A DNA stretch of 64,000 bases from Prorocentrum cordatum (GCA_963575745.1 CAUYUJ010004703.1:17501-81500), one strand, 5' to 3'; positions 5,055 to 55,130 are shown, counted from the stretch's first letter. A program made the numbers and translations. Notes: generated by a model from the letters alone, not told the origin.

Positions 5055-5118
5055 CAGTCGGCCTTGATTGGACAGACAGGACACGCGAGAGGACACAAGA
5101 CCCTTCCGAGGACCACAT

Positions 5119-5351
5119 AGTCTGAAATGACTATGGTAAGTCAAATAACATCCAATTCCATGCTGTGTTAGTTCAGTATGGGGAGTGGATGGATAAGATC
5201 GGATAGTATCGACGTAATGATCTTTCCAGCACATAGCGAACACAAGCAGTGTCCAGGCAAATAGGGCGCGCGTGCCTTGAGCCACAGGCAACGGCGCGCA
5301 GGCTATACTCCCGACCCTCTATAACATCTCCCAAAGAGCTACCCTTAAAGT
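5119..5351 (-). repeat. 3' LTR
   Basis: Direct copy of 20823-21055, equal length, about 94% identical by eye. In the sense direction it begins ACTTTAAGGG and ends CATTTCAGACT, so it lacks the usual TG...CA ends. A spliced-leader-like word occurs at 5276-5294. Confidence 0.92.
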
Positions 5352-5834
5352 CGGGAGGGGAGGAGACGGAGAGCAAAGCCGCGCAGCCGTTGGGCTCTAG
5401 AAAGGCCGCGCGCACAACTGTTTGCAAGAAAAACAGTGCGCACAGTCTGGCCTACCACCAGACTGAAGGGCGAGATTATTCGCCGGCGAGTTTCCTCGCA
5501 AAACGTTTTCACGCATACGCAGGATAGCCCCTTGGACATCAAAGGGCTATCGGCCCGAATAAAGGTAAGCCAAACAGGCGATTCCCCCCCAGGCAAAAAT
5601 ACATTAAAGCAACGAGCCTGAACCAATCTGAACAGGCTCGCTGCCAAGCGTGAAAAGTAGGGCTCGTTTCCGGGCGGCTAGGAGGGCGCCTCTGCATTAG
5701 GCGCCCGTGCTGGCAAACTGGACCGCGGGGGCAACAAGGACAAACTAAAACTGATTCGACTTAGGCTTACTTCTGTCCTCAGGGACACGAAAGGGAACAA
5801 ATTGCTTCACGTCATACTTAAATGACTGAGTGCC
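5352..5834 (-). other. element 3' region with stacked hairpins
   Basis: Lies between the RNase H stop and the 3' LTR and has no long ORF. It holds adjacent hairpins at 5469-5484 (GGCGA stem, 6-nt loop) and 5486-5499 (GCGAG stem, GAAA loop in sense). Further stems are GATAGCCC/GGGCTATC (5523-5551), CGAGCCTG/CAGGCTCG (5613-5640) and GGGCGCC/GGCGCCC (5684-5706). The tract beside the LTR is purine-rich on the plus strand, hence pyrimidine-rich in sense, the opposite of a normal polypurine tract. Confidence 0.6.
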
Positions 5835-6752
5835 TCACATCACTTCCAAAAGCAGCTCCCGATCGATACTCCCCTTTGTATGCCCATCTGCGGTCATGTC
5901 TCTAGTATCGCACCACTGTACGTTGTGCACTATACCTATATCCATGAGCTGACGTATCCAGCTGATATGTCCCAGCAAAGTCCGTTCCGTCGGCATCTTA
6001 AGATCTTTGTTGGATAGCGATGTGTATAACGACTCAGCGTCTATAGTAAGGGATACTTTGATAGCTAGGCCTCCAACTTCACGCATATCTCGTAGTTGTC
6101 GTGGAATGAGTGTCCCTGCCTTGAGCTCGTGGAGAGTGATGAGCGCGGGATAACATTCATCAAGATTGTGTGCAGCTGCAAGTGCCTCAGCGGCATAGCT
6201 GGCCCTCACCTGCAGTCGGTGTGATTTACATAGTCCGTCGCAAAGGTGAATGACGGATTTGCCTTGAGGCGAATTTCCTCGCCGTAATACGTTAGCCCCA
6301 CGAATGCCGTAGCCCTTGGTTTCATCGCCCTCCTCCCCGGTGAGCTTCCGATACCCCGAATCACTGTGTATGTCTACTTCATTCATCGGTTTCATCCGAG
6401 GGAAGGTGATGCGCTTCGGGCTGCTGATCCGCTTTCGCGTCACAGCATTCAGTCGCCTGACTTGTAAGTTGGTGGGCTCTAGGATCTTCTGGAGAGAGAC
6501 CACATACATTATAAGCCAGACTTGAGTAAGAATGGCATAGGCGAGAGCTCCTCGCAGGCTAACGAACATGTCGGTGATGAGTTTGGTAGCTTTGGCGTCT
6601 GCCGCCGCTCCCGTAAGTTCAGGGTGCGTGATAGGACGTAGTTGTTTAATGTACTCGTCCTGATCCATGATCACGTCCCCTTGTTCATTCTTAGTGTAGC
6701 GAACGGCACAGTTTGTATAATAATGTTTGTTGAGCTTGCAATTACCAAACAC
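5835..6752 (-). CDS. RT C-terminal part and RNase H
   Basis: A 305-residue ORF overlapping the VDD frame. Residues 1-125 are RT thumb/connection; RNase H follows with D131 (HSDSGYRKLTGEE), E189 (SYAAEALAA), D238 (TIDAESLY) and D289 (DTRDMTADGHTKG), the four-acid set of copia RNase H. It degrades RNA in RNA:DNA hybrids during reverse transcription. The first Met is internal; the true coding sequence comes from the preceding frame through a frameshift at about 6700. One near-perfect hairpin lies at 6269. Confidence 0.8.
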   Translation of the reverse strand: MFGNCKLNKHYYTNCAVRYTKNEQGDVIMDQDEYIKQLRPITHPELTGAAADAKATKLITDMFVSLRGALAYAILTQVWLIMYVVSLQKILEPTNLQVRRLNAVTRKRISSPKRITFPRMKPMNEVDIHSDSGYRKLTGEEGDETKGYGIRGANVLRRGNSPQGKSVIHLCDGLCKSHRLQVRASYAAEALAAAHNLDECYPALITLHELKAGTLIPRQLRDMREVGGLAIKVSLTIDAESLYTSLSNKDLKMPTERTLLGHISWIRQLMDIGIVHNVQWCDTRDMTADGHTKGSIDRELLLEVM

Positions 6753-8260
6753 CTTTCCGACACGTTGTACATAGTCATCCTCGTTTTTTTCTCTAGGCCT
6801 GTCATATTGGTATCGTCGACATCTTTTGCCGTTAGCAGATCCTGACTGAATGCAAACTCAAGATCGTAACATGTCGGCGCGAGGCCTATAGCTCGTGTAG
6901 TCGCACGAAGCTTGAGGGAGAGAGCTCTTGGGGCGTCCTCTGTACCCGTTCCTGGCTTGAGGCACCTGAGGCAGCGTCGGCTTTCATCGTAAGAAGAGAA
7001 GCCTGGCAGCGTACGAAGCACCTGGGCACTTCCTGGTGGAAGAGCGAAGCAAGCCATGCGAGTTTCCTCGCCGGTGGCATGAGCAAGTTCCTCCTAGGTC
7101 AGACCTTCGAGAAACGCTTTGTCGATATCCATAGATGCTAAGACCCATTCTGGATGACATGCACCTCACTTGCCAGGAGCCTCTGGGGCTGTCTTCGAGC
7201 AGTTCCTGAGAAGGTTTCTACATCGAACGCCTCCGTGCCCATGAAACCGTGAAGGACAAGTCTGAGACGGATGGTTTTAACGTTCTCGGCGCCTGCCTTC
7301 ACAAACTTCCACTGATATACATAATCTTGATGTCATGATGTCGGAAGCTTCAGATAGGTCATACATCTCAAAGCACAAGTTGTCAAGCCAGATCTTGAGT
7401 TCGGTGTACAAAGCTTCACTAACCTCTTTAGGGTGTGCTGCTATATCGGCTTTGGTGAGTCGGTCGTCTTTCTTGACTACCACAGCACGTTTCGCAGCCG
7501 ATGATACATCTACTCTCATCGTTGCGACCATGTCAGTTTCAAGCTGTGCAAGTTGGGTCTGATCCAACACTGCCTTTGATATTTCTGGTGCGAAACATAG
7601 CTCAGCATAAGGACCGTGTTCATCACTGTCAAGAGAATAGCCCTCGTCAGGTGTAGTCGAGCATAGAGAGATAAGACAGGGCTCTTGTAGTTCAGGCTCG
7701 TCTCCGAGCATCTCCGACACTACGGTATCTTCCTCGTCCACGAATGCTGATACCAAGACACATTGGTCGGGCAGCATAGTTGTTGGGACGCAGTAGAGAT
7801 GGTCGTCGATAACCGTTGTGGGATGAAGGTCCATACGTAACTCATCGCACCACCCCTCCATTATCATAGCCTCGATGTCATGTTCCTCTTTTTCTTCGTA
7901 GACTGTAGACAGGCGACCTTTCTTGGTGAGGCCTGGGGTGTCTGGTGGAGGCCTGTCTCCAGGCTGGTCGTGTTCTCCAGACGTTGTGCCAAAGTGCTGA
8001 TACTTGGCAAGGTCATCATGAAATCCTAGGGAAGGAACTTGTGACGTCAGGCATTGGATGAGTCTGGAGTGAGTGCTACCAGTGATTTGAGAGATGTGCA
8101 GGCCGGTGCCCACACACTCATAATAGTGGAAGGCTGGGTTAACATCACTGTCGTAGTGGATGAGTGTAGACCCGGTGGCGTACTTTACTGCAGGTAGATT
8201 TGACACGTTCTTGGCCAATCTCACGGCTACTACACGTTCAAATCGGACATAATTTCGCAC
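6671..8260 (-). pseudogene. copia reverse transcriptase, broken
   Basis: The 8260-7277 frame carries an acidic leader, then SEALYTELKIWLDNLCFEM, the entry to copia RT. After a frameshift near 7325 the RT continues with YVYQWKFVKAG and VETFSGTARRQPQRLLASE, then meets a stop near 7145. A further frame (7057-6671) gives FALPPGSAQVLRTLPGF, KPGTGTEDAPRALSLKL and the catalytic VDD (its residues 80-82, in KDVDDTNMTG). At least two frameshifts and two stops make this copy inactive as written. Hairpins at 7058 (read GEETR), 7696 and 7951 interrupt it without regard to frame. Confidence 0.8.
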
Positions 8261-8326
8261 GAGATACTGCAGTGCAAGGTGTACGCGCGGGTGGAACTTA
8301 CTGTCGTCTGGCAGATTGAGGTTTCC

Positions 8327-9859
8327 CTAGTAGTCTGGAATATAGCCAAAGACTTTGGCAGGTTTCCCTGCACCGAGGTGTGCCACATATGCACGGACGG
8401 TTTGCATGGCCACGTTGCCCATGCCAAGTTCCCTGGTAAGAAGGCATTCAATGTATAGCGTGTGGCGAGCATCAGGGTACATGACAATTACCTCACGCGA
8501 TCCTGCCTTGACGACAACGCGTCCTCGTTCAGGCACGTTGCGGATCACAGGAAACGGGCCGTTCCAGCCTCCATGGTCGTCCTTAGTGGCTGTAGGTCGG
8601 TGATAATCGACCAAGTCCCCTGCTGAGTAAAGGCGAGCGCCATCTGGGGCCGTCTTAGCCCTGAGAGCACGATTTGTCTTAGCTACCGCCGTGGCTTGAG
8701 TTATTGCTTCCAGGCGAACTTCCCTCACGCGGCGTTCTCGTTCGTGGCCTGACGTCTCGGGCCCCTTAGGGGAGTCAAGGGTGTCGAGGTCAGGAAGAAG
8801 AGAGGGCTGTCGCCCAGCGTGTGCTTGGCACGGCGCTACTCCGTTGTAAAACGTGAAAGCGCTGGTGACGAAGATGCCTTCAGCCAATACTCTAGTAAAT
8901 ACAACGGGGATGTTGTGTCTGTTCAGCTCTTCCTCAATCATATGGAGAGTGCGCCTAAGAACGCCGTTACGTGACTCGATCGAGGTCGCGTGTTGGCCAG
9001 GCGCTCGGATACGAAGTGTCGCACCCTTGTTCGCCATCATGGCCTTGGCAGCGTCATTGTTGAGGGCGTCTTCTCCATCTGAATACAAGATTTTGAAGGG
9101 TCCATGATAGGCAATCCAGCAGTAGTGGTAGGCGTCGAGTATAGTGTCACGTTCTCTATCAGAAATCTCCTGGCCTGCTGCCAGTCGGATACATCGGTCC
9201 ATAATTTGAAATATGGTTCGTTTCTGGTAAAACATGAGATCTACTTCGCTTTCGTCAAGCCAATTTCCAGGAAGGCTTACGGAAGGTAGCGTAGAATTAC
9301 CTGGACGTTCCCATGCTCTACATTCCCGACATGTGTCACATATTGCTTTGATCATATGTAATCGAACGCTATCCAGTCCCACTTTGTCTAGGATCAGCCT
9401 CATCTTGGGTTCCTTCGCATGATACCACCGTAAGTGCAGTTTGCGGAGTTCCTTTTTGGCTACGTGAGGTTCGTGACTACGGAGGTTTTGCAGACTGTGT
9501 TGGATGTCAAATCTCGTCCAGTCGGGCAGTCGTGGAGCCCCCGAACCGGTTGAGGCAAGAGGGTTCCTCGTGGCTCTCCGCAGTCGGTCTCCTTCGTCAA
9601 CTGCATCTGGCGGTGGAGGTACGCCTTGTAGGCGACCACGGCGGGCCGCTACTTGCGGCGGCTCGCCTGAAGACGCGGAGGGCGTGTTTCCACGCTCGGG
9701 CGCGTCTCGCAGTATGTCGTCACTGCCGGCGCCAGATGTAGGATCAGCGTTCCCAAAAGCTCGTGGTCGTGGTGGCCTGGCGTGAGCGCCCTGACGGCCA
9801 CCCGACGCCGAAGCTTGGCCCTCCCCAGGCTTGGGTAAGGGTTTCCACCAAGCTGGCAC
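8327..9859 (-). CDS. copia-type integrase
   Basis: A 510-residue ORF. An HHCC zinc domain has H142-x4-H147 and C174-x2-C177, followed by a DDE core with D207 (EVDLMF), D261 (LYSDGE) and E295 (SIESRNG); D-to-E spacing is 33 against the usual 35. A C-terminal DNA-binding-like part follows. It would insert element cDNA into the host genome. In-frame coding extends upstream of the first Met to a small C-x2-C...H...C finger (CPACQRG..., about 9900-9985), so the real start is further 5'. Hairpins at 8358 (read GKP) and 9682 (read RGNTP) lie inside. Confidence 0.8.
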   Translation of the reverse strand: MPAWWKPLPKPGEGQASASGGRQGAHARPPRPRAFGNADPTSGAGSDDILRDAPERGNTPSASSGEPPQVAARRGRLQGVPPPPDAVDEGDRLRRATRNPLASTGSGAPRLPDWTRFDIQHSLQNLRSHEPHVAKKELRKLHLRWYHAKEPKMRLILDKVGLDSVRLHMIKAICDTCRECRAWERPGNSTLPSVSLPGNWLDESEVDLMFYQKRTIFQIMDRCIRLAAGQEISDRERDTILDAYHYCWIAYHGPFKILYSDGEDALNNDAAKAMMANKGATLRIRAPGQHATSIESRNGVLRRTLHMIEEELNRHNIPVVFTRVLAEGIFVTSAFTFYNGVAPCQAHAGRQPSLLPDLDTLDSPKGPETSGHERERRVREVRLEAITQATAVAKTNRALRAKTAPDGARLYSAGDLVDYHRPTATKDDHGGWNGPFPVIRNVPERGRVVVKAGSREVIVMYPDARHTLYIECLLTRELGMGNVAMQTVRAYVAHLGAGKPAKVFGYIPDY

Positions 9860-9899
9860 ATTGCGGCCTTCGGGATCATGATCATCTGGGAGTTTGAAC

Positions 9900-10330
9900 G
9901 GCTCAGCAAAACGGCATCTGCCGGGCTCAGTGTCGAGGTGGCTCTTAACACCCTTGCTTCTCGTAAGGCCCCTTTGGCATGCAGGACATGACCAGTATAC
10001 AGAGATAGAGTCATGATACTTGCACTGTATAGGATCTCTGTCGTGGCTGGGACTGTCCTTTCAGGCATTATCGATGCATGCTGGGCATGTAGCCACTTTT
10101 GAGATGATACGATCGCCGATGCGTCTCATACCCTCTCCTGGTTCAGCTTGATCAGGAAGGTCGGCAGGGTAAGCATGCGCAGTTCGTGCAGGCGCGTCTC
10201 CGCGCGTGGTGTCGATGGCTTTCGCCAGATAGACGGCTTCCACAAAGGCAGACTGCAGTCTTCGAGTGAATTTTTGCGCCAGTGAAACCCCCTGTTGCAC
10301 GGTTGTGCGTGCACATGCTGACCGCTGCAC
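9900..10330 (-). pseudogene. polyprotein linker upstream of integrase
   Basis: Open pieces encode LQSAFVEAVYLAKAI, then after a stop the Cys/His finger CPACQRGLTRSKGVKSHLD-like and the approach to the integrase ORF. Frames change twice, so the stretch is broken. It links the methyltransferase-like and integrase parts. Confidence 0.45.
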
Positions 10331-10339
10331 TTCAGTCGC

Positions 10340-10957
10340 TCAAAAGGGTTTAAGAATTGTCTCGTCGTTGCTGGTGATATTAGTCGGCTTCTTGATATAG
10401 TCACCAGCCGTATCTTTAAGTCCCGTCGCACATTGGTCGATGCGTACGGTTGCGATATGTGATCGGTCGGCAAGCTCTTTCCATGGGGATATATCATCCA
10501 CCCATGTTCCTGTGGGTTGTTCGCGTATAAACCACCTCCGTGCATTATCTTGAGTAGCAGCAAATTTACCACAATAAGTTATGTGTGGCAAATTTTCTTT
10601 CTGATGCTGTTCCCAAGTGTTATAGTTGGCTCAGTAGTTGTAGTAGGATGGTGGTCCTGTGGTGCGGCAGCTGGGCTGTAGCATGGCTACTCGTGCGTGG
10701 CATACTGCGAAGTCATGGTCTACAGCTCGCTGCACCGAGGGATCTCCCAGGTCGACACATGCGGTCTTGTCTAAGCTGCCTCCTGAGGAGAGACCCCTCG
10801 AGAAGGCAAGCTCTGAAATGCCACCCTCTCCTTCGCAAAGCTCCAACATGTCCACGCAATTGTTGTGACCATAACATAGAGTAGCCACTATGCTATATAT
10901 GTCCGCGTGTGTCGGGCATAGATGCGGGGAGGGTAAGGAACAGGTCATCTTCCTCAT
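10340..10957 (-). pseudogene. methyltransferase-like segment with in-frame stop
   Basis: VDMLELCEGEGGISELAFSRG resembles the SAM-binding motif I of C5-cytosine methyltransferases, and VAMLQPSCRTTGP resembles their motif IV PC region with PSC in place of PPC. The frame then hits TGA at about 10631-10633 and continues open with YNTWEQHQ, CGKFAATQ and a TVRIDQC-type block down to 10340. Some dinoflagellate retrotransposons are known to encode DNA methyltransferases, so such a module is plausible, but the match here is remote and the catalytic proline is absent. It may be an unrelated Rossmann-type domain. Confidence 0.45.
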
Positions 10958-12031
10958 CTGAGCTAATCAGCTCGACAAGGACATCAGTGCTCAAGGTCGC
11001 CTTAAGATCCTGTCCGAGTCCTGGCAAGTCGTCACCGCAATCATCCTTTCCATCTTCAACGTGCTTTTTGATGCGGCGAGGCTTGATGCCTGCCTCCTTT
11101 TCGGCTTTGAGCCTTTCCTTCTGTTTGATACGCGACTCCGTAGGTAAGACTTGCTCGTCTTGTTCACCGGTCTGTGTGCCCATCGTCGTTGATGAGTGGG
11201 CACCTGCGTCAATCGCCAGAGTCGGGAGGGGAGAAAGACAGTCATCTATGATGACGCGTCTGGGTTTCTGTGGTGATTGAGTAGGCTCGTTTCCGAGCAT
11301 GACCGGTTCCTCGGGCTGCCAGTACATCCGTGTACTGATGTTGGCAACCCCTGTAGGTAGTGGTGCATGCCAATCATATCCTGTTGGTTGATCGGCTACT
11401 GCGATATCCTGAATAATCGCGTTGGTATCCAGGTTGATCGTTACACGTCGGATGACATCAGACCATTTCGGTCCTCCTTTATTGGTCGTCACATAGTTAT
11501 GTATGTTGTGATCCGTACGTTCCGTGCGTAGTGTTGCTTCCCAAGATTTTGTCGTTGAGGTGACGGATAAGTGCGATGCGTGTCTGGGCTCGCCATTCAG
11601 CATGTCGTACCGTTTGGCCGTACCAATCCAACACATGTTGTGGCATCGCCAGTTTGCACGCACATGCCCACAACTTAGAGCTAATCGGTATCGATATGGC
11701 TACATGCATATAGGTACCACTCGGTGTGTTGTCTTGCATATTAAACCTAATACCGAAATGACATAACCGCATCCGTACTACCGTCAACTTAGGATCTTCC
11801 AGAGTATCACAGATTGGGGATAACTTCCAAACGTATCCTGGGGGGCCAAACACTATTAATTGTCATGCGGAGCCTCTTAGCTTTTGTCAGAAGGTTTTGA
11901 ATGCGCGACCAGTGTGGGGCTACTCTCTTTCCTGGGGTTCGTACGTACCAGTCACCCGGGGTACTAACCCATATTAAAGTATAGTCCCCACTGATCACCG
12001 CGCCCAGGTAATCTGCGCCCACGGTCGTCAT
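10893..12031 (-). pseudogene. decayed polyprotein segment, unknown function
   Basis: Overlapping open frames (11807-12031, 11497-11853, 10893-11663) read as one broken coding stretch between protease and methyltransferase-like parts. The longest part includes a basic/acidic stretch with KQKERLKAEKEAG and ends Asp/Glu-rich. No domain recognised. One GNRA hairpin at 11285 encodes LGNEP. The region 12032-12214 also has no intact frame, with a near-perfect hairpin at 12130. Confidence 0.4.
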
Positions 12032-12214
12032 GAGCTCATTGTGGGAAATGCGATCACAGCTATAACCTCGGGTGCGGAGGTCAGCGCAAGCCTCTCTCGC
12101 ATCTTCGATGACGAAAGCTCTTATACTATGGCAGGTTGCCCCGCTGTCCTTGTTACCCCCTGGCCTTTCGGCTATCAGGCAAGGCGACGAGGGGGCAGCG
12201 TCGCCCTGCCATCC

Positions 12215-13471
12215 TCAAGATAAAGAAGATGCGCCTGCAACATCTGCCAGCATCTGGGCTTCCCTCAGATGCTGGAGCTCAGCACTGCAGCGCGCGGTAG
12301 CCTCAGAAGCGGATTGCTCCGCAAACGTGGCCAGCATGGATGGAGTATCCATCAGCTGCTTCAATAGGCCATTCGACCTTGCGTCGTTGACCGTCTGCAG
12401 CTCATGGTTCGTGTATCCCATCACTATCTTCCGGCGGGACCGTGCAGCGTCCATGGGTACAAGTCCGCCATGCTGGGCCAGTGCCCTGGCTACGAAGCAA
12501 TCGAACGTCTCCAGATCATCGATGCTGTCGCCTCTCACCGTCGCCTTGGCGAGTATCGCGAGCAACCCCTGAGGCAGGCTTCCCTGCAGTTGTTGGCGCT
12601 CTTGCGCAGGGGGCGGCTCGCCTGTCAGCACTGTCTGGAACGATGTTGTACTTGTACTCGAGGCGGGTTGTCCCGCGGCTCCAAATCGATCACACCTGAT
12701 TGACAGATGTCCTGATGACAACTTCGTTATCGGCATGATCTGGGAGTCCTGGCCTCGCTCGAGCACAGTGATAGTGCGCTTGTCCTGCATACTGTCGAGG
12801 CCCAGGATAGCTGGCAGGTCCTTGCCACAGCCTGACACAATATTAGTCTTGTGCGAGTCGAGCTGGGTCGAGCCCTGGTACTCGCAGGCAATGCTGAAAG
12901 TGCCCACGGTATCAGCTGGGGCCGACCCCTCGCCTACCCCGTTGATATTTAATCGAGAACGAGGTTCAAACGTACAAGGACGATTATGTGCCTCAGCAGC
13001 CAAGACGAACTTGCGGCTCGCATTTTCTCCCATTATGTTAATCTTCGAGCCCGCGTCTATGAGGATTGAATTCCCACCATCCTCGAACAATGTCTTACTC
13101 GGCTGCTTGATGTGCACTGTCTCTGACGTGCCGGCTGCACTGTCTGGCGGGTTTCCCCGCATCTCGGTCGTGCTCCTTGGCGGGTCTCCCCGCATCGTGC
13201 TGGCACCTGGCCTTCCTGCGGCCATACGTGCCAGGTCGATGTACTGAAAGTGCGACACGTTCTGGACTTGAGTGCCCTGTTCCTCCCGCCAGTTGGCATA
13301 CTCATCAAGTATGCTGTATTGCAACCGCCCGTCGAACTCAATGTTCGTAGCTGAGAGCTCGACGGCCCTGACTGCTGTTGCCGCTGTCGCCACTGAAGAG
13401 TCTGAGAGGTCAAACGACTCGCTCTCGGGATTGTCGGCGTCCAGCATGAACGTGGTGTGTGCATTGTCCAC
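12215..13471 (-). CDS. retropepsin-like aspartic protease ORF
   Basis: A 418-residue ORF. SILIDAGSKINIMG (residues 135-148) sits where retropepsins carry D-[ST]-G-[AS], and AILGLDSM (221-228) matches the later ILGxDxL block. The catalytic triplet reads D139-A140-G141, an unusual Ala for Ser/Thr. Retropepsin would cut the polyprotein in particles. Hairpins at 12574, 12663, 13147 and 13180 fall inside. Residues 1-120 contain two MRGxPP repeats encoded by the latter hairpins. Confidence 0.7.
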   Translation of the reverse strand: MDNAHTTFMLDADNPESESFDLSDSSVATAATAVRAVELSATNIEFDGRLQYSILDEYANWREEQGTQVQNVSHFQYIDLARMAAGRPGASTMRGDPPRSTTEMRGNPPDSAAGTSETVHIKQPSKTLFEDGGNSILIDAGSKINIMGENASRKFVLAAEAHNRPCTFEPRSRLNINGVGEGSAPADTVGTFSIACEYQGSTQLDSHKTNIVSGCGKDLPAILGLDSMQDKRTITVLERGQDSQIMPITKLSSGHLSIRCDRFGAAGQPASSTSTTSFQTVLTGEPPPAQERQQLQGSLPQGLLAILAKATVRGDSIDDLETFDCFVARALAQHGGLVPMDAARSRRKIVMGYTNHELQTVNDARSNGLLKQLMDTPSMLATFAEQSASEATARCSAELQHLREAQMLADVAGASSLS

Positions 13472-13518
13472 CTGGGTCTGGAAGTGGCGAACACGCAGTT
13501 CTCGCAGCTGTTCAGAGT

Positions 13519-14040
13519 CTAGTGGCAGCTCGGTCCACCCCCACCTTGGGGTGACATCGGAGGAGCCACCTGCCCGACTCCAGGCTCGTAATGAGTTGGA
13601 AGAATCGGCGCAGGTGGGGTGTTAGGCAGGTTGCCCTGCTGTGGCGCCGTCAACGGGATAAGCTGGTCGAAGTACCCCGTCTCCATCGGCGTCCTCACCT
13701 CCTCTGGCGGGTTTCCCCGCTGTTGGGACTGTGCTGTCTGCCTGTCCAGCATGCTGGCTGTCATTTCCTCCACCATGCCCCTCAACTCCCGCAGCCCCCT
13801 CGCTGCCTGTTCGGGAGCCTGAGTGACGGAGCCGGTCCATGGAAACGATGACGCTATGATACCTGGCGCTCGGCAGATAGCACATACTGGTTGCTGAGGA
13901 TCCCCTTCTCGCTGATTCGCAACATGGCCCACCACATTCGAGTTCCAGCACTCCTCGTGGAACAGATGGTTGCACCTCAAGCGGTAGATGTTCTCCCTCG
14001 GCAGAAACTCCTCGAGGCAGACCGCGCAGGCGTCTTCCAT
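13519..14040 (-). CDS. RING-H2 finger protein within the LTR element
   Basis: A 173-residue ORF. The first 60 residues form a RING-H2 finger: C5-x2-C8, C23-x-H25-x2-H28-x2-C31, C53-x2-C56, within CAVCLEEF...CNHLFHEECW...CAICRAPG. RING-H2 domains usually act as ubiquitin E3 ligases by binding an E2. The remainder is Pro/Gln-rich and carries two GNRA hairpins (13626, 13707). It lies between the Tpt1-containing ORF and the protease ORF, in another frame. It could be a polyprotein segment instead of a separate protein. Confidence 0.75.
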   Translation of the reverse strand: MEDACAVCLEEFLPRENIYRLRCNHLFHEECWNSNVVGHVANQREGDPQQPVCAICRAPGIIASSFPWTGSVTQAPEQAARGLRELRGMVEEMTASMLDRQTAQSQQRGNPPEEVRTPMETGYFDQLIPLTAPQQGNLPNTPPAPILPTHYEPGVGQVAPPMSPQGGGGPSCH

Positions 14041-14249
14041 CCCATTCTAGACTTCCACGTCTGCCGCCCTAGGGCACACCCGCCGCTGCCGCTCCAGGAC
14101 TGCATCGGAGCCCAGGAAAGCAGCTGGAGGATCTCCTGCGGGAGCCAGTACCTCCGGCGCTGCGGCAACCACTGCTGGAGAAGCTGCCGTTGTGGAGGCT
14201 GCGGGCGACACGGCTGGCGAGTTTCCTCGCATGGGTGAGCCTCTGTTCC

Positions 14250-17200
14250 TCACGACCTCAAGTGCGGCTGCACGTGCTTGGTCACGTACACTCTGTACTG
14301 CCTGCCTGCGCCTAAAACACGCCTGTTGAGTGTGGTACGTCTGCCTGATGTAGTCTGGTACTCCCCTACTGCCTGATGATATCGAATGGGCAGTAGGCTG
14401 GACGGCCACCTTTGGCGTTGTCGGTGCAGGCATGAAACCATGTGCGGATACATGGACTGATCACTGCAGCGCACATTCGTGAGGCTATGAAACTGATCCG
14501 CCGTCTCGCGAACAAATCTGTTCGGGACTCTAGACCCATCTGGGTACAGTGGCGGATCCATTGGTGCTGGCGCTGGCCTCTGGCCCTGAGCCATGCTCGG
14601 ATGAGCATTGAAGGCCGGGATAAAGGCTCGTTGCCGAGCAGGGTCACGTGGATTCGGACCCTCTGGCTCCCAGGACCAGGCTGGCCCCCACCTCTGACCG
14701 CTCGGGTGGTGCAGGTTGTGACTCTGCACCTGTTGTACCGCAGCTGCCACCCTTGCGCGGTAGTCATCAGGCACTCCAGCAGCAGTAGTTTGGCCAGCAA
14801 AAGGTCGGTGGTGTACTGGTGTGCCGGGCAGGTTTCCCTGCAGAATCGTTGGCGTGCCCGGTGGCATCATGCTCAAAAGAGCTGTGCCATGCTCAGCTCT
14901 GGCCGCGGCAATCCGCTCCATGAGAGTGCCATTCGTGGCAGACCGACCAGGAGTCCCAAACGGAGACTGTACTGGTGGTGTTGCCACTGGGGTCATGCCC
15001 CTCGGTGTGTGCACGCTATGCGAGGGGCTTCCTGGCATCTGCTCGAATCGAGCAGGCTCTCCGAAGATGCGGCCGATAGTTTGCGGGTCTCCCTGCGGTT
15101 CGGGCATGTCGTTTCTGAGTCCATTAACGGGCAGGTTCCCCTGCATGGCCTGGCGGTTACGTGTCACCATGGCGGACATAGCTCCCTGACCTGCGGCCCA
15201 GGGATCTTGCTGGTACAGTCTGTCCGCTAGCTGTTCCACCTGCTCAGGATTTAGAGCAGCCGCGATCTGATCCAGATCCGAGGTGCTGAGGACCTGCCAA
15301 GATATGGCACTAGGCCCTTGGCTTGGAGCACGGCTTGGAGCCGCGCTTCCTGCCTCGCTCTCGTTGATCATGAGGATCTGGTGGATTTCGGGCTGGTTTC
15401 CCAACGCTGTTGGGCTGCAGTGGTCCCCTACCTCTCTTTGACCATGAACCATATGAGGCTCATTAGCCCTTCGGTCAAGAGACCATCTGTGCTTGATACT
15501 AGCACTGCCCACAGTGTTCCACCTGTTCGGGGCCGTCATTATGGCAGTGGAGACGCGTGCATGGCGACTGCCCAGATATTCTGGGTTCCGCCATTGCTTT
15601 CCTGGGGAGAGTTCTTCCACGTGCGTAATAAAATACGGCTCAATAGTGCCGTCTTTTCCTTCTGATAGGAGAACCCCATTGTCGGACCAGTAAAATCCGA
15701 TCCCGTCCTTCAGGGCTTGGTGCCAGTCCACAAAGATAGCGATTTCGGAGTCGGGGCCCCGTCCACTCTGCACGCCGCGACGACGAAGCGTCGGAACAAA
15801 GCGGATGTGTGATCGGCCAGTCCCTCTCTTCTTGGTGTTGTGTTCTTTACGACAAGAAAGGCCATGCCACATGGTGCCCTCAAAGGCTATCCACCGTGTG
15901 CCGCGCATGGCAACATCGGGGTATGGGGCCGGTCTCCCGGCAAGATTGTCGTGCAGTACAATGTACTTGTACAACGACCAAGGGGCCTTGAGCGGCCACG
16001 AGTGCTCTTGCGAGGCACGGATGAGTATGTCGGATTTGCCAGAATCTCGCACCAGGACCTTGAACTGCAGACGCTGCTTCTCTTCACCGTCCGACTCGCG
16101 GACGTGGACGATCGCCAGCATGATGGCAGCCATCTGGTCAACCGTTCTATCGTAGAAAGTCTCGGCGATGATCTTGGCCTCATCCAGTCTCGGGTTGTGC
16201 CCGTTCTGTCTCGTACGTCCGTTGTGCCGCGGAAACTCGCGTACGAGCTCATCGAGATTGATCCATCCATCATGATCGTCGAACGTCTCAAGTCTCCACA
16301 CTGCATTGTGTGGTCTGTCAGGCGCGTGTCTGCAGATCCTGTTGAGGCATTTACTAAGCTGCTTGGGTGCATGATTACTTCTCGGAACAATACCTTTCTG
16401 CCTGCAGCTCTCCATGAATGCCTCATCCACCGAGCGCATCGGTGGAAGATTCCGCAGGGCACGTCGATCATTGATTGACGCCTGACTCCCGCTAGTAAAG
16501 GAAGTATCCCCTGGGTGATGCAGCTTATCCTCCGGCGGGTTCCCCCGCAAAGGAGCCTCTGTCACCGGAGAGGCTGCGGCTCCTGAGGAGGAGAATGCTG
16601 CAGCTGCAGCGCCTGGCGGGTTTCCCCGCGGTGTTTCTCGGCTGGCGCCGCCCCTGATCTTAGGCGCCCAGGTACCCCTAGATAGAGCACCTTCCTCAGA
16701 CCTATTGGAGCGTGTCGCCGCAGGCGAGGCCGGCGTAGGGGTAAACCCTGTACGCTCGAAAGCCTTGGCCTTGCTGGCGATAGAGCCGCTACGGCTAGGC
16801 TGTCGTCTGCGGACCTCCGAGGCGTCCTGAGGTTGTTGCCTGAGGTCAGGTCTCTGCGCAAGAGTTGATCGAGTCGGTGACTTCGGCATTTCAGAACGGG
16901 GCCTCTCCATCTGCACATCGAACCCGAGTTCCTCTGAGCGGGCCGACGTTTTCTGTCTTTCCCCCGAAGGCGTCCTGGGTGCACATGTTTCGCTCTTGGC
17001 CTTCGGTTGGAGCGGGGGCTTCCTTGCCCCCTTCATATAGATCTTTTGTGACTCCAGCAGCATTTGGCGAGTTGCCTCGCGGGCGCGTTCGTCTGCCGCT
17101 CGCCTGCGCTCCGTATCTGCTGCGGCTCGCTGAACCTTCTGTTCATCGTCATCCATCATCTCTGGCTGTTGGGCCTGACTGGAGACGCCAGGCGGGTTTC

Positions 17201-18371
17201 CCCGCATTCCAGGAAGACGATTGAGCGCATCTTTCTCTTCCTGGGTCATAGGCACAAGTCCCCTCGGAGGCTGAACCTCATCGGCCATAGGGCTCCTGTG
17301 AGCCGTGGTTCCGAGACGACGGTTGATCTCGTCGATCTCTGCTTGGGTCATAGGAACCAACGGTGGATGACCCTCCTTTGCAGGAGGGCGGCCTCTATTC
17401 GGGCTCAAGCTCTCGTTGAGACCTATAGGACACCCAGGCCTGTGTTCCTGGAATGGCTGTGAGAACGGGCCGCAGACTGCGTTTGGCCTGTAGAGCTTGC
17501 GTGCCGCAGTGATGGTCCGCAGCTGGGCCCGTACTGCCTCTATCTCAGGACGACGAATGTTCGTCGCGAGCTGATAGCCACCCCGTATGGACCTGCCTTG
17601 GGCATCCCTGTAGGCTGGGTTGCCTCTTCCAAAGGCAGCGTGCTCACCTATTTGACGCCTAGGGTCGTTGTAGGCGAGCAACTGACCCCCTCGTCGAGAG
17701 GCATGCTCTGATGGGGCTGCTTGCCCCCATTCGCGTGGGGGCCGTGCTTGAGGGCGAGGGTCGCCCCTAAGGCGTGGATGCGAGCGAGACCTCCTGGCAT
17801 GTTCATCAGATGATGCCGCCGACGTAGCCTGAGCAGGAGCCGGCGGGGGCCCCTGCGGGGCCGCATGCGGCGCATCTTGGGCAGGCAGGTCTCCCTGCTG
17901 ACTGGAGTCTGGCATAATTGGCTCCTGTGCGGGTGGTGGCGTGTCAGGACTGACAGGGCTAAAGTCCACCTTCTCGTCTTCACCGTTGACTTCCATCATG
18001 AGGATGGTGGTCTCGTCTTCGCACATCCCACATCCATCACCTTCTTCATCTTCTGACATAGGATTGCCAATGACGATGGTCATTGGTCCAGCCGGGACGG
18101 GCAGGTCTCCCTGCTGTATATGCGTCTGAGCATCGCTTGGCTGCCCCGGCGTCGGCGGTGCGGTAGTCGGCTCAGGCTCGTTACCGAGCATAGCGCGCGC
18201 CTCGAGATGATCATAGTCATATGAAGGCTGCCCGATAACATTTCGCATGGCCGTGTGGTTGGGCTGTAGTCCCGCCGCCCGGAGACCCCATCCCGGCGGA
18301 GGGAGAGCCTGTCCACGCATGGAGATGGCCCTTTCAAGGGCTTGGCGCCATCTCCCTCTAGAATACCACAT
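14250..18371 (-). CDS. long proline-rich ORF with Tpt1/KptA-like domain
   Basis: A 1373-residue ORF. Residues 1-640 are low-complexity, Pro/Arg/Gln-rich, with a coiled-coil-like stretch at about 413-443. Residues about 668-925 (bases 15597-16370) match the RNA 2'-phosphotransferase family Tpt1/KptA: LSKCLNRICRHAP (R681-H682), DGWINLDEL, QRLQFKVL, IRASQEHS (R785), GRSHIRF, an Arg-containing segment before SEIAIFVD, then DGIGFYWSDNGVLLSEG. The family removes the splice-junction 2'-phosphate after tRNA ligation, using NAD+; it uses an Arg-His-Arg-Arg set, and candidates for all four are present. The C-terminal third is Pro/Gln-rich. The ORF runs open through about a dozen GNRA hairpins, often read as xGNxP. 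Fusion to a retrotransposon is seen; function there is inference. Confidence 0.8.
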   Translation of the reverse strand: MWYSRGRWRQALERAISMRGQALPPPGWGLRAAGLQPNHTAMRNVIGQPSYDYDHLEARAMLGNEPEPTTAPPTPGQPSDAQTHIQQGDLPVPAGPMTIVIGNPMSEDEEGDGCGMCEDETTILMMEVNGEDEKVDFSPVSPDTPPPAQEPIMPDSSQQGDLPAQDAPHAAPQGPPPAPAQATSAASSDEHARRSRSHPRLRGDPRPQARPPREWGQAAPSEHASRRGGQLLAYNDPRRQIGEHAAFGRGNPAYRDAQGRSIRGGYQLATNIRRPEIEAVRAQLRTITAARKLYRPNAVCGPFSQPFQEHRPGCPIGLNESLSPNRGRPPAKEGHPPLVPMTQAEIDEINRRLGTTAHRSPMADEVQPPRGLVPMTQEEKDALNRLPGMRGNPPGVSSQAQQPEMMDDDEQKVQRAAADTERRRAADERAREATRQMLLESQKIYMKGARKPPLQPKAKSETCAPRTPSGERQKTSARSEELGFDVQMERPRSEMPKSPTRSTLAQRPDLRQQPQDASEVRRRQPSRSGSIASKAKAFERTGFTPTPASPAATRSNRSEEGALSRGTWAPKIRGGASRETPRGNPPGAAAAAFSSSGAAASPVTEAPLRGNPPEDKLHHPGDTSFTSGSQASINDRRALRNLPPMRSVDEAFMESCRQKGIVPRSNHAPKQLSKCLNRICRHAPDRPHNAVWRLETFDDHDGWINLDELVREFPRHNGRTRQNGHNPRLDEAKIIAETFYDRTVDQMAAIMLAIVHVRESDGEEKQRLQFKVLVRDSGKSDILIRASQEHSWPLKAPWSLYKYIVLHDNLAGRPAPYPDVAMRGTRWIAFEGTMWHGLSCRKEHNTKKRGTGRSHIRFVPTLRRRGVQSGRGPDSEIAIFVDWHQALKDGIGFYWSDNGVLLSEGKDGTIEPYFITHVEELSPGKQWRNPEYLGSRHARVSTAIMTAPNRWNTVGSASIKHRWSLDRRANEPHMVHGQREVGDHCSPTALGNQPEIHQILMINESEAGSAAPSRAPSQGPSAISWQVLSTSDLDQIAAALNPEQVEQLADRLYQQDPWAAGQGAMSAMVTRNRQAMQGNLPVNGLRNDMPEPQGDPQTIGRIFGEPARFEQMPGSPSHSVHTPRGMTPVATPPVQSPFGTPGRSATNGTLMERIAAARAEHGTALLSMMPPGTPTILQGNLPGTPVHHRPFAGQTTAAGVPDDYRARVAAAVQQVQSHNLHHPSGQRWGPAWSWEPEGPNPRDPARQRAFIPAFNAHPSMAQGQRPAPAPMDPPLYPDGSRVPNRFVRETADQFHSLTNVRCSDQSMYPHMVSCLHRQRQRWPSSLLPIRYHQAVGEYQTTSGRRTTLNRRVLGAGRQYRVYVTKHVQPHLRS

Positions 18372-18618
18372 GTCGCTGCACGTCCTCAGGGCGCACGCTG
18401 TCGATAAGAGTAAGGGCCGCTAACACTAACTCCGAGTCGTCACAAGCATCGGTGTCTTGTAGCATCATGTGGCCACTCTCGACGCTCTCTTGACTCTCGG
18501 GATAGGCTGCGACCATGGCAGCGTGCATCGGCATGAGAGTCTGCAGTATCGCGTGCGGTCCGTACTCGCCTGGCGCGAGCATGCCAGGCGGCACGTGTGG
18601 GTTTCCTGGCACGCCCAA
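18358..18618 (-). CDS. short polyprotein fragment
   Basis: An 86-residue open frame between the zinc-knuckle ORF and the long Tpt1-containing ORF, overlapping the latter by 14 bases. Rich in Met/His/Glu with no recognised domain. Its position suggests it is part of the same polyprotein separated by frameshifts. Confidence 0.35.
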   Translation of the reverse strand: MGVPGNPHVPPGMLAPGEYGPHAILQTLMPMHAAMVAAYPESQESVESGHMMLQDTDACDDSELVLAALTLIDSVRPEDVQRHVVF

Positions 18619-18636
18619 GGTGAATGCTTGAGCCTC

Positions 18637-19359
18637 TCATTCCATCAGATCACCATAATTTGGAGGATATACTGGAGTGGGCCTGTTTCCAGGCATGAGG
18701 TCGGGTTGACGTCGAAGGTTGTAGTCAACCTCCGACGGCGAGGCCTCAACAGCGACTTCCACGTCGCTGCTCTCGTAGGCCATGATGTTGCCTGGGTTGC
18801 CGAACATCCAGTCGAAGAATGAAAGGGGCTGGTTTCCCAGCGTTCCGTTCTCCACAGGCGTAAGTTCGAGATTACCGAGAACAAACCTGCGGAGGTACTC
18901 GAGGTAGTACGCGCACAGTCCATGACCGCACGCCTCGAGCTCATCCAAGTTGTCCATACTGCTAGCCCAAGTGAAAAATAGCTGTTCCACAGCCTCGAAA
19001 TCTTGGAGGCTCAGATATTCAATAGCTGGTTCACTTGAGCCGAAATGGACTTCGGTTGATCTACCCTTTCCATTTCCCTTCGCTGGACAATCCTTTACAA
19101 TATGATCGGTACTATCACACTCATGGCACTTTAGGATCTGGCCGTCTCTACCTCGCGGGTTTTCCCGCCTACCTTTACCTTTGCCTGAGGTATCCCCACG
19201 GCCTTTTCCACGGCCTTTTCCCCCGAAAACTATCTCATCATACTGATCATCTGATTGCCTCTGGAGGAAAGCCGAGATGCCTCGTCCATTCAACCTTCGG
19301 CGACCCCGTTTGCCTTTACCTTTTTCCTTTGAAGCTCCTCCGTATCCTCCTCCTAACAC
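18637..19359 (-). CDS. Gag C-terminal part with CCHC zinc knuckle
   Basis: Starts with a Gly/Lys/Arg-rich basic stretch (residues 1-75), then a zinc knuckle C78-x2-C81-x4-H86-x4-C91 as in retroviral nucleocapsid proteins, then an acidic tail. It should bind element RNA. It is in a different frame from the upstream capsid ORF, with 313 bases between them, consistent with decay or a programmed shift. It carries GNRA hairpins at 18681, 18828 and 19155, the last with an AAAA loop. The start methionine is internal and probably not a real start. Confidence 0.7.
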   Translation of the reverse strand: MLGGGYGGASKEKGKGKRGRRRLNGRGISAFLQRQSDDQYDEIVFGGKGRGKGRGDTSGKGKGRRENPRGRDGQILKCHECDSTDHIVKDCPAKGNGKGRSTEVHFGSSEPAIEYLSLQDFEAVEQLFFTWASSMDNLDELEACGHGLCAYYLEYLRRFVLGNLELTPVENGTLGNQPLSFFDWMFGNPGNIMAYESSDVEVAVEASPSEVDYNLRRQPDLMPGNRPTPVYPPNYGDLME

Positions 19360-19672
19360 GACGCACTGGTTTTCGTGTGAACCTCCTCCGCCTCCGCTTT
19401 GCCGGTTGTAATAGCCAGAACAGGTGTTCGGCGCGCTGATTGTCCCCTTCCATTTGCATGATATCTGACCAATCTAGGGGTTCGATACCATCTGATGATA
19501 TGGTATCGGTGTCGGTGCCGGAGTCGAAGTCGTCGTTGCCTAGGTGGGTGGGTGCACCGTCGTTTAGGAGATTCGCTTCACCCCACAGGGAACGGTGTGG
19601 TCGAGGTTCTCTAGGAGGAGGGCTGGCTGCCCAGCTTGGTTGCGATCGATCCCCTGTTAGTAGGGCCGTAGA

Positions 19673-20797
19673 TTATCCTGGACTGTCGGCCCATATGTTT
19701 GAGGGCCCGTTGCCAGGCTGAGCTTCAGTGGTTAAGGTAGTATAGAAATTTCCACTGCCAGTTCCCCTTCCCCTTCCCCTTCCAAATGCTGATCCTATGT
19801 TGCCAGGAGACCGTTCTGGCAAATGGCCTATCGAACGCATCCTCTCACACAACTCACCATACTGTTGTTGTGTTCGGGGCATTTGGTGGTTGAGTGGCTG
19901 TAAGAGTTGCATTGCTCGCTGGTTACCAACGCCTAGGGCGCGGAACAGGATAGTAGTGAGCAATTGGGAGTTGGGAAGGTCAAGCCCCACCGACTGTGCC
20001 TCAAGACGGGCCATCTCGAACCGAGTAAGGGTTACATCGATTCGTTCTCCGTGAGGCACATGAAAGTCGATGAGCTGAGTGCCTGAAGTGAGCCGGCGCT
20101 CATCTTCCAGGCGTTCGAACTTCATGCTTAAGAGGAACATAATGTATGTTAATGGGTCGGTGTGGACACCATCGGTGTCCGCACCATAGTTTAGAATGTC
20201 AGGTGGTACCCTCATGGCGAGTGTCCTCGCTAGGCCACCCAGGCCGCGTTGTATGGCGGCTGCTCGGGCCTGTGGCGTCATGCGTCCGCTTGTGACGTTA
20301 AGCCACGCGTTGACCTCATAAACGTATTCGCGGAAAGGTACGTTGCCTTGAGGGTCCCAGTATGGGCCATGTGTTTGCCCATCTGTGCTGTTGTCACCTC
20401 GGCGCATGTGTCCGATTGCTGCCCCCAGCGCAAACCATATACTGGCGAAGATAACCAACCCAAGGCTGTGAAGATATGGGTGATTATCAGGCGCGTTGCC
20501 GCGCTGGGGTAGGGCTTGTAGCGCCTTGTCAAGTCTACGAGGCGCTTTATCTTGCGGGTCTCCCCGCCTCTGCTTCAAGTACTGCGCTTTTGGCTCGTTG
20601 CCGAGCGGTTGGTAATAGCGTAGTGCTGAAGCGTATATGGTACCAATGTTGTTGTCTAGACGTCGTACCTCTCGTGTTGCTTCTTGCTCTTGAATTGATC
20701 CTCGTACATGTAGTTGGAGTGGTGGCGCAGGGTGGTAGTTGGTCACGAAGATCGTGCCGGGTAGCGTGAGGATAAAAAGGGCAAGAGCTGACCACAC
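19673..20797 (-). CDS. Gag-like capsid ORF of the LTR element
   Basis: A 374-residue ORF, the first after the 5' LTR. Residues about 145-345 form the retrotransposon Gag/capsid-type helical region, including TYIMFLLSMKFERLEDERRL, GERIDVTLTRFEMARLEAQS and LRALGVGNQRAMQLLQPLNH-like stretches typical of dinoflagellate copia Gag. Two hydrophobic stretches (residues 3-20 and 110-127) are unusual for Gag and could be membrane segments. The end is Gly/Arg-rich. The zinc knuckle lies in the next ORF in another frame, so a frameshift separates them. Capsid would package element RNA in cytoplasmic particles. Confidence 0.75.
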   Translation of the reverse strand: MWSALALFILTLPGTIFVTNYHPAPPLQLHVRGSIQEQEATREVRRLDNNIGTIYASALRYYQPLGNEPKAQYLKQRRGDPQDKAPRRLDKALQALPQRGNAPDNHPYLHSLGLVIFASIWFALGAAIGHMRRGDNSTDGQTHGPYWDPQGNVPFREYVYEVNAWLNVTSGRMTPQARAAAIQRGLGGLARTLAMRVPPDILNYGADTDGVHTDPLTYIMFLLSMKFERLEDERRLTSGTQLIDFHVPHGERIDVTLTRFEMARLEAQSVGLDLPNSQLLTTILFRALGVGNQRAMQLLQPLNHQMPRTQQQYGELCERMRSIGHLPERSPGNIGSAFGRGRGRGTGSGNFYTTLTTEAQPGNGPSNIWADSPG

Positions 20798-20810
20798 GAG
20801 AGTGCGGCCA

Positions 20811-20822
20811 GCTCCGCTACCA
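20811..20822 (-). promoter_or_regulatory. primer-binding site, initiator-tRNA-Met type
   Basis: The sense strand reads TGGTAGCGGAGC immediately after the 5' LTR. It is complementary to a tRNA ending GCTCCGCTACCA. It differs at one position from the TGGTAGCAGAGC site expected for a common eukaryotic initiator tRNA-Met. Confidence 0.75.
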
Positions 20823-21055
20823 AGTCTGAAATGACGAGGGTAAGTCCAATAGCATCCAATTCCATGCTGTGTTAGTTCAGTATGGGGAGTGGATGGCTAA
20901 GATGGGATAAGATCGATGTAATGATCTTTCCAGCACGTAGCGAACACAAGCAGTGTCCGGGCAAATAGGGCGCGCGTGCCTTGAGCCACAGGCAACGGCG
21001 CGCAGGCTATACTCCCGATCCTCTATAACATCTCCCGAAGAGCTACCCTTAAAGT
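20823..21055 (-). repeat. 5' LTR
   Basis: Pairs with 5119-5351. It directly abuts the primer-binding site on its inner side and the cacat target duplication on its outer side. It presumably carries the promoter. A spliced-leader-like word is at 20980-20998. Confidence 0.92.
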
Positions 21056-21164
21056 CACATTACCATGGGGGATGTAGGAGGCATGGGTCGCGAGGTACAG
21101 GACACAAGGATACCTAAGGGTACCCTAGATTTGGCAGGGTCGACTTACTAGTCAGGGCCGACTG

Positions 21165-31560: not shown

Positions 31561-31764
31561 ATCACGCCTGGGCGACGTCGACCGAGGGAGCAGCGCGCCG
31601 GGCAGCCGACGGCCCAGGGCGAGAGTCCACAGGACCGAGAGATGGTCTGGCCGCGGACTGCTCGCGCCCCGGAGGTCTGGCCGCCCCCGGAGCGCCGTTC
31701 CCCCGCCCCGTCGCCTTCGCGCATGGTGCGCCCCTGGCACGCCACCGTGGTGATGACCCTGCCG

Positions 31765-37819: not shown

Positions 37820-37835
37820 AGTCGATCATCAGCCT

Positions 37836-45329: not shown

Positions 45330-45417
45330 CTTTTGTGAGGATTTCATTAGGATTCCTTTTGTGGAGGGTTGCAATACGATTCCTTTTGTGGAGGATTGCA
45401 AAACCATTCGGGACCTC

Positions 45418-55067: not shown

Positions 55068-55130
55068 GGGGCTTTCATCATACTGCTTACACCTGTCACA
55101 TGTGGCGTTGCCACGGTACGATTTGAGAAA

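Follow-up and report, generated by a model that had tools for sequence, protein, structure and literature searches.

What keeps several dozen copies of one small predicted hairpin in place along the RNA of a single retrotransposon? The question is raised by a 64-kb stretch (the window) of the 4.13 Gb genome of Prorocentrum cordatum, in which positions 5119-21056, read on the minus strand, are a long terminal repeat (LTR) retrotransposon of about 16 kb whose two direct LTRs, 234 nt each, are identical at 221 of 234 positions. A preliminary description had noted in this element a dispersed family of 14-nt hairpins with stems of the form GCNNG..CNNGC, mostly closed by GNRA tetraloops, and had attributed them to selection or spread acting on RNA or DNA structure. 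We found the family to be real, and we conclude that selection acts on the structure of the sense strand and not on one peptide, because the stems change by compensatory substitution, the hairpins are largely lost on synonymous-codon shuffling, and a second family carries the same stem in other peptides.

The sites were followed in three near-complete copies of the element, A (75-83% identical to the window), B (90-94%) and C (87-91%). A second family was represented by D (loci L027 and L015) and E (L028 and L017), both sharing about 65% identity with the window element over the reverse transcriptase (RT) region, and 10-kb pieces of two others, F and G, were also read. The 43 sites listed in the window, including those with GNYA loops, wobble pairs or decay, are as follows, with the stem arms in capitals and the loop in lower case; 32 of them are perfect GC-starting GNNA hairpins.

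20593-20606, minus: hairpin GCTCG gcaa CGAGC
20554-20567, minus: hairpin GCGGG gaga CCCGC
20491-20504, minus: hairpin GCGCG gcaa CGCGC; no hairpin here in copy A
20217-20230, minus: hairpin GCGAG gaca CTCGC, GNYA loop
19705-19718, minus: hairpin GCCTG gcaa CGGGC, one U.G pair
19622-19635, minus: decayed site GCTGG gcag CCAGC; gcaa in A, B and C
19155-19168, minus: decayed site GCGGG aaaa CCCGC; gaaa in A and C
18828-18841, minus: hairpin GCTGG gaaa CCAGC; GCTCG..CGAGC in copy A, compensatory
18681-18694, minus: hairpin GCCTG gaaa CAGGC
18176-18189, minus: hairpin GCTCG gtaa CGAGC; lost with its flank in copy A
18101-18114, minus: hairpin GCAGG gaga CCTGC
17885-17898, minus: hairpin GCAGG gaga CCTGC
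17192-17205, minus: hairpin GCGGG gaaa CCCGC; GCGAG..CTCGC in copy A, compensatory
17067-17080, minus: hairpin GCGAG gcaa CTCGC
16616-16629, minus: hairpin GCGGG gaaa CCCGC
16535-16548, minus: hairpin GCGGG ggaa CCCGC
15928-15941, minus: hairpin GCCGG gaga CCGGC, within the KptA domain
15392-15405, minus: near-perfect GTTGG gaaa CCAGC; GCTGG in A and C
15131-15144, minus: hairpin GCAGG ggaa CCTGC
15083-15096, minus: near-perfect GCAGG gaga CCCGC, A.C mismatch
14828-14841, minus: hairpin GCAGG gaaa CCTGC
14626-14639, minus: hairpin GCTCG gcaa CGAGC
14217-14230, minus: hairpin GCGAG gaaa CTCGC
13707-13720, minus: hairpin GCGGG gaaa CCCGC; GCAGG ggca CCTGC in copy A, compensatory stem with GNYA loop
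13626-13639, minus: hairpin GCAGG gcaa CCTGC
13180-13193, minus: hairpin GCGGG gaga CCCGC
13147-13160, minus: hairpin GCGGG gaaa CCCGC
12663-12676, minus: decayed site GCGGG acaa CCCGC; gcaa in A, B and C
12574-12587, minus: decayed site GCAGG gaag CCTGC; gaaa in A, ggaa in C
12477-12490, minus: hairpin GCCAG ggca CTGGC, GNYA loop
12309-12322, minus: hairpin GCGGA gcaa TCCGC
12131-12144, minus: hairpin GCGGG gcaa CCTGC, one G.U pair
11285-11298, minus: hairpin GCTCG gaaa CGAGC
10192-10205, minus: hairpin GCGCG gaga CGCGC
9682-9695, minus: hairpin GCGTG gaaa CACGC; peptide RGNTP, HGNVP in the relative P0002
8358-8371, minus: hairpin GCAGG gaaa CCTGC in conserved AGKPA; GCGGG..CCCGC in family D, compensatory, matched through protein
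8214-8227, minus: weak near-hairpin GCCGT gaga TTGGC
7951-7964, minus: hairpin GCCTG gaga CAGGC
7696-7709, minus: hairpin GCTCG gaga CGAGC
7058-7071, minus: hairpin GCGAG gaaa CTCGC, RT coding (GEETR)
6269-6282, minus: hairpin GCGAG gaaa TTCGC; CTCGC in A, B and C; GCGTG..CACGC in D, E and G, compensatory
5662-5675, minus: near-perfect GCCCG gaaa CGAGC, 3' of the last stop; GCTCG in A, B and C
5486-5499, minus: hairpin GCGAG gaaa CTCGC, 3' of the last stop, 3' noncoding

The sense strand of the element's interior (5353-20822) contains 57 five-base-pair stems closed by tetraloops; 31 of these have GNRA loops, and 30 of the 31 begin with GC, the exception being CTCCT at 17373. On the antisense strand there are also 57 such stems, none with a GNRA loop, and 200 dinucleotide shuffles gave a mean of 0.57 GNRA stems (standard deviation 0.68, maximum 3). 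Within the eight long open reading frames (ORFs), 25 GNRA hairpins were observed against 1.5 (maximum 5) in 200 synonymous-codon shuffles. The remainder of the 64-kb window has three perfect GNRA stems, two on the minus strand and one on the plus strand, of which one starts with GC (GCGCC at 53020) and none is of the GCNNG form. A general abundance of stems was rejected as an explanation, since the stem totals are equal on both strands; the GNRA class and its orientation are the special part. Kissing between loops was likewise rejected, judging from the letters, as GAAA, GAGA, GCCA and GTCA are not self-complementary.

The earlier tally of 31 GCNNG stems, 27 of them with GNRA loops, is corrected here to 35 and 29. 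The six others comprise two GNYA loops (20217 and 12477) and four loops decayed by a single base (19622, 19155, 12663 and 12574), at each of which copy A, B or C has a GNRA loop. When the pattern GCNNG-GNRA-CNNGC was searched with its four N positions left free, the two free dinucleotides were complementary in 29 of 33 matches in the window, 32 of 35 in A, 31 of 36 in B and 35 of 40 in C, where chance predicts 1 in 16. Pooled, this amounts to 127/144 for GNRA loops in the window and copies A-C; the corresponding figure for GNNA loops in D and E is 60/63. A sixth, outer pair is possible in 5/137 hairpins of the window family and 15/78 of D and E, against an expected 6/16; stem length stays at five pairs, and this limit is the tighter one in the window family. 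The base immediately 3' of the hairpin is C in 29 of 32 window sites and shows no preference in D. In a 254-nt context, the predicted probability of formation averaged 0.82 for 33 GNNA stems of the window and 0.70 for seven stems with other loops. The hairpin positions are compatible with a uniform distribution (Kolmogorov-Smirnov p 0.32, coefficient of variation of the gaps 0.77), and no regular phasing was found. A covariance-model scan of 5000-21200 against Rfam 15 gave no match at E values up to 1, and three background 10-kb pieces (L023-L025) contained no perfect GCNNG-GNRA hairpin.

Sites of this kind, oriented in the same way, are present in copies A, B and C too. At 37 sites one or more of the four copies have a perfect hairpin: at 21 of them 4/4, at nine 3/4, at five 2/4, at one 3/3 and at one 2/3. 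Between A and the window, identity is 97% in the stems, 87% in the loops, 86% at the 3' neighbor and 80% in the flanks, the stem value being somewhat inflated by the selection of sites as perfect in at least one copy. The comparison covers 175 stem pairs, of which 168 are unaltered, three are changed on both sides and still paired (at 18828, 17192 and 13707), two are changed on one side and still paired, and two are broken. The wobble pairs U.G at 19705 and G.U at 12131, as read in the sense strand, are each retained in all four copies. The stems covary among related copies, and none of the outcomes named in the preliminary description as refuting its reading was obtained, among them an equal frequency on the antisense strand or in shuffled sequence.

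D and E share with the window element the layout Gag, KptA, RING, integrase and RT, with RVT_2 scanned in D alone. The sense strand of D has 49 GNNA hairpins, 45 of them GC-starting, against six on the antisense strand, and 29 of its stems are GCGGG..CCCGC. Across families the hairpin is kept with a changed pair at 8358 (A-U to G-C; the D counterpart, aligned through protein, is L015:6169) and at 6269 (A-U to U-A in the counterparts in D, E and G). The loops differ: the window has 31 GNRA and 2 GNYA, and D has 8 GNRA and 41 GNYA (Fisher test, 6e-13); E resembles D, with 32 GNYA and 4 GNRA.

The preliminary description had the hairpins reading in all three protein frames. Every phase is indeed occupied, but one dominates. 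Among the 37 perfect or near-perfect sites, 29 lie inside long ORFs, and 23 of these are in the phase xxG CNN GGN RAC NNG CC, with five and one in the others. In D the phases hold 34, 7 and 7 of the 48 hairpins in ORFs. Outside the main phase of D, 10 of 14 loops are still GNYA and four are GNRA, so the loop difference is more than a codon effect. A few hairpins (5486 and 5662) sit 3' of the last stop in noncoding sequence, and these count against a role in translation alone.

Certain residue pairs are imposed by any hairpin in the main phase, and this gives a peptide rule on xG[ND]xP that can be applied to relatives represented by protein. The protein relatives came from public sequence sources without genomic context, one being labelled Pyramimonas, so any hairpin in them is read through residue pairs. 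In the metagenome relative P0019, 59% identical to D, 7/7 xG[ND]xP peptides fit the pairing rule, as do 8 of 5040 permutations. All seven have the residue D (Asp) at the [ND] position; hairpins there, if they exist, would have GNGA loops.

A structure of fixed size with loop letters typical of the family is best fitted by a protein reader with a family preference. We tentatively propose, with a little less than even confidence, that the approximately 40 hairpins are family-specific recognition sites for the element's own Gag/nucleocapsid in RNA packaging. Hairpins of one geometry (five pairs, a GC base and a GNNA loop) would be dotted along the element RNA, where the element-encoded Gag/nucleocapsid would read them and so select, condense and package a long RNA. 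The candidate reader would be the basic, CCHC-bearing, nucleocapsid-like region of both families, for in copy A and in D a KGKGRRGNPR-bearing region occurs with a putative CCHC knuckle. The difference in loops between families would correspond to a difference in reader specificity, and the element, with its 16 kb, may require more signals than Ty1 does. We infer, accordingly qualified, action at the RNA level, a reader encoded by the element, specificity through the loop and selective packaging; packaging or template signals, more broadly, remain the likely reading.

It is possible, if rather doubtful, that the hairpins also form a barcode for self and non-self RNA, in which each copia family would co-change its loop letters (GNRA with a 3' C, GNCA, perhaps GNTA and GNGA) and its reader, thereby packaging or protecting its own RNA.

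Across the genome there are 38,124 occurrences of GCNNGGAAACNNGC and 7,419 of its reversed control; the corresponding numbers are 12,621 and 1,932 for GCGGGGNRACCCGC, 18,359 and 1,458 for GCGGGGNYACCCGC, and 131,206 and 64,850 for GCNNGGNCACNNGC. Clusters were compared on the first 100 places of each pattern. Among GCGGG stems on contigs common to both such sets, the clusters of D, E and C83 have 24, 22 and 23 GNYA loops versus 5, 3 and 4 GNRA loops, and among the matches listed no GNYA loop falls in the GNRA clusters, whether those of copies A, B and C or those of C56, C70, C78 and C130. The cluster counts speak for the packaging proposal.

Two other genomic clusters were observed. At G000:C19:62077-65690 on the minus strand, the matches listed include five GCGGG-GNNA stems with exclusively GCTA or GTTA loops, a possible third loop type. 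At G000:C1:1214061-1228294 on the plus strand the GNCA pattern is matched 14 times in sense; the arms vary, five of the matches being fully complementary and two more having one wobble, and the locus is probably an older element copy.

Several points weigh against the packaging proposal, in addition to the selection effect on stem conservation mentioned above. Site 15083 reads A.C in the sense strand, opposite to the wobble trend, and the coding site at 7058 has no hairpin in D or E. Copy A has a GNYA loop at 13707 where the window has GNRA, and the pieces of F and G carry nine and seven hairpins with mixed loops; the loop contrast is therefore not absolute and rests mainly on two families. 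The modelled formation of the 49 stems in D has the same mean, 0.56, as that of 19 stems with other loops (medians 0.61 and 0.83), and the repeated stems may cross-pair. The dominance of one codon phase in each family indicates that peptide tolerance co-shapes the hairpins. The nucleocapsid is a candidate through position alone, KptA being present equally in both families. A signal over the whole length would be unlike the studied relatives, since the cis signals of Ty1 and Ty3 lie near the RNA ends. Finally, among the relatives P0020-P0047 the peptide rule is met in 6 of 18 xG[ND]xP matches, and the trait is not shown there.

Rather unlikely, in our judgment, is reading of the hairpins by a host RNA-binding protein, or by an element protein other than Gag such as Tpt1/KptA, in the service of export, stability, translation or escape from silencing. 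GNRA folds are common docking sites for protein and RNA, which favors a host or other reader of this kind, and KptA and RING are present in each of the four hairpin-rich elements (window, A, D and E), RING being recognized by sequence in the window and by Pfam in the others. A single host reader shared by the families would not, however, predict that two families of the same genome differ in the third loop base and the 3' base, as they do. We know of no link between Tpt1 and hairpins. The activity described for Tpt1 is the removal of 2'-phosphates from RNA (PMC6333775), which speaks against KptA as the reader.

A role at the DNA level, in which the hairpins would act within single strands in the course of reverse transcription or in extruded form, for example as sites of strand transfer, pausing or recombination, appears improbable. 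Perfect palindromic arms would fold in DNA too, and the orientation is fixed relative to the plus strand, but the G.U and U.G pairs retained at two sites in 4/4 copies are wobbles in the sense strand, and family-specific GNNA loops look to us more like RNA recognition than generic DNA folding.

Selection on peptides, with the hairpins as by-products of recurring xGNxP and AGxPA linkers, is very improbable. It would account for the single codon phase of 23/29 window and 34/48 D hairpins; the synonymous shuffles, however, keep 1.5 of 25, and 25 of the 28 AGxPA peptides in D are perfect hairpins even though the codons of Ala, Gly and Pro are each used at comparable rates. The peptides vary within and between families while the stems pair, and hairpins exist in other phases and beyond the stop.

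That the hairpin inserts itself, as the preliminary description had suggested by analogy to double-hairpin elements, or like organelle GC clusters, is hardly credible despite the many copies with a near-identical core, for 32 of the 33 window sites align without a gap within the hairpin in the covering copies (75-94% alike) and no precise presence/absence insertion was found among the copies compared. The remaining site, at 18176, is missing from copy A along with the sequence next to it. A further site, seen in A, B and C, is absent from the window owing to a gap that begins within the hairpin, so this is not a clean empty site. Differences among copies arose by substitution, deletion and tandem duplication, and no inserting 14-mer was observed. 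Relative to E, D has two additional 24-nt units and one additional 30-nt unit, in frame and in tandem with one hairpin each, and such differences indicate that local duplication adds hairpins. In two other coding regions of the window, GNNA loops occur in 0/9 stems (53787-58793) and 1/6 (36623-41426), also at odds with free movement. Organelle mobile hairpins are short and dispersed, show paired variation and insert themselves; the sites here, unlike those, are common to the copies and evolve through paired substitution. The duplicated units lie at L015 1740-1850 versus L017 268-330 and at L027 6395-6500 versus L028 948-1030.

The lambda-type boxB hairpin, a five-pair stem starting with GC and closed by a pentaloop of GNRA fold, is read at one or two sites by the basic N peptide. 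The hairpins described here resemble boxB in the five-base-pair, GC-starting stem and in the loop type, and differ from it in the tetraloop and in the number of sites, about 40. In RNA viruses (MS2, picornaviruses and the hepatitis B pregenome), dispersed packaging signals share a short motif proposed to guide the coat protein (PMC6281560), and assembly mediated by such signals is the closest known parallel to the role proposed here. As there, many sense-strand stem-loops here have a common motif and a structure kept by compensatory change. In the viral signals the sequence varies round the motif, whereas the present sites, known from sequence alone, agree in their five pairs and in the letters at the base, have a loop that is for the most part specific to the family, and belong to an LTR retroelement.

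For Ty1 and Ty3, one review (PMC4974528) places cis packaging signals near the RNA ends and finds the interior dispensable when proteins are supplied in trans; a minimal Ty1 requires 380 nt at the 5' end and 357 nt at the 3' end and can do without as much as 5 kb in between. According to the same review, Ty1 Gag selects RNA via cis sequences, and scattered sites beyond the main region likely contribute. The element described here shares with these an LTR retrotransposon RNA, selected there by Gag, and departs from them in having a repeated motif over its interior. How Ty1 Gag recognizes its own RNA among host messages is described in the same source as still poorly defined. A putative signal repeated about 40 times in one RNA, in which paired mutations reveal the important letters and a sister family has the same stem with another loop, would make the self-recognition of retroelement RNA directly testable and would offer a clear-cut example for the concept of dispersed packaging signals. 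Heat-activated, recently expanded Ty1-copia elements are known in Symbiodinium (PMC11453091), and the present element resembles dinoflagellate Ty1/copia elements in its RVT_2 reverse transcriptase and LTRs. Among the literature matches listed, which exclude most subscription journals, there was no report of repeated hairpins or of Tpt1/KptA with RING in such elements.

The coding content of the element, in sense-strand order, is as follows.

20823-21056, minus: 5' LTR, 234 nt, from LTR-LTR comparison
19673-20896, minus: Gag-region ORF, no Pfam match, named from its position and the subsequent zinc knuckle
19078-19131, minus: putative CCHC zinc knuckle, nucleocapsid-like, in ORF 18637-19473 (Lin-28A-like CCHC model, E 9e-4, below cut-off)
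15657-16364, minus: Tpt1/KptA RNA 2'-phosphotransferase domain, in ORF 14250-18419 (PF01885, E 7e-17)
13870-14034, minus: RING-H2 finger, by sequence, ends by eye; copy A matches zf-RING_11/zf-RING_2 in Pfam
12215-13621, minus: protease-region ORF, no Pfam match, with an ILIDAGS motif
8327-10060, minus: integrase-region ORF, no Pfam match, placed by position, 17 protein-database relatives
5835-8326, minus: RT/RNase H region, frame-broken in the window copy; RVT_2 found in copy A
5119-5352, minus: 3' LTR, 234 nt, from LTR-LTR comparison

The order of Gag region, CCHC, KptA, RING, protease region, integrase region and RT/RNase H puts the integrase-like ORF before RT, as in Ty1/copia, and RVT_2, a mark of Ty1/copia, was matched in copy A and family D; no RT match came from the window copy, whose frames are broken. 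The element is a Ty1/copia-type LTR retrotransposon. Directly after the 5' LTR on the sense strand is TGGTAGCGGAGC, which we take to resemble a primer binding site for initiator tRNA-Met. The ILIDAGS of ORF 12215-13621 is presumably the protease motif, and ORF 8327-10060 we assume to be an integrase from its resemblance. The zf-CCHC match in copy A is weak and below the curated cut-off, and that in family D is likewise weak.

KptA and RING are carried by the polyprotein in two families (window 13870-16364 on the minus strand; L027, L015 and L028). We know of no other retrotransposon with a Tpt1/KptA domain, and the literature matches listed for Tpt1/KptA name no retrotransposon. Speculatively, KptA could use the activity cited above to strip 2'-phosphates left by RNA ligation on the element RNA. 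The KptA-RING ORF of copy A had no homologues at E 0.001 among 7,990 scored candidates. A first look at the genome gave 1,624 candidates for the integrase piece (40 scored) and 2,877 for KptA (150 scored, all above the cut-off); the best KptA matches may be host genes. The integrase loci L030-L048 are about 94-95% alike, and the 7 of 19 stored in sense orientation, which were read, added little. Collections of viral contigs and genome contigs yielded no related loci.

A conserved pyrimidine tract, CTCTCCGTCTCCTCCCCTCCC, occupies 5353-5373 on the minus strand, at the place expected for a polypurine tract before the 3' LTR, and is found likewise in copies A, B and C. The interval between protease and integrase (10050-12220, minus strand) contains ELCEGEGGISELAF and VIEDAREACADLRTRGY, the latter seen also in family D, and resembles a decayed domain of methyltransferase type. 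Elsewhere in the window, 31677-33324 holds 15 copies of a 90-nt tandem repeat with several open frames and 15 GCTCC-CTAT-GGAGC hairpins, and 45298-46756 consists of nested direct and inverted repeats of 26/27 nt, with arms of up to 193 nt that are 88% complementary and could form long hairpins.

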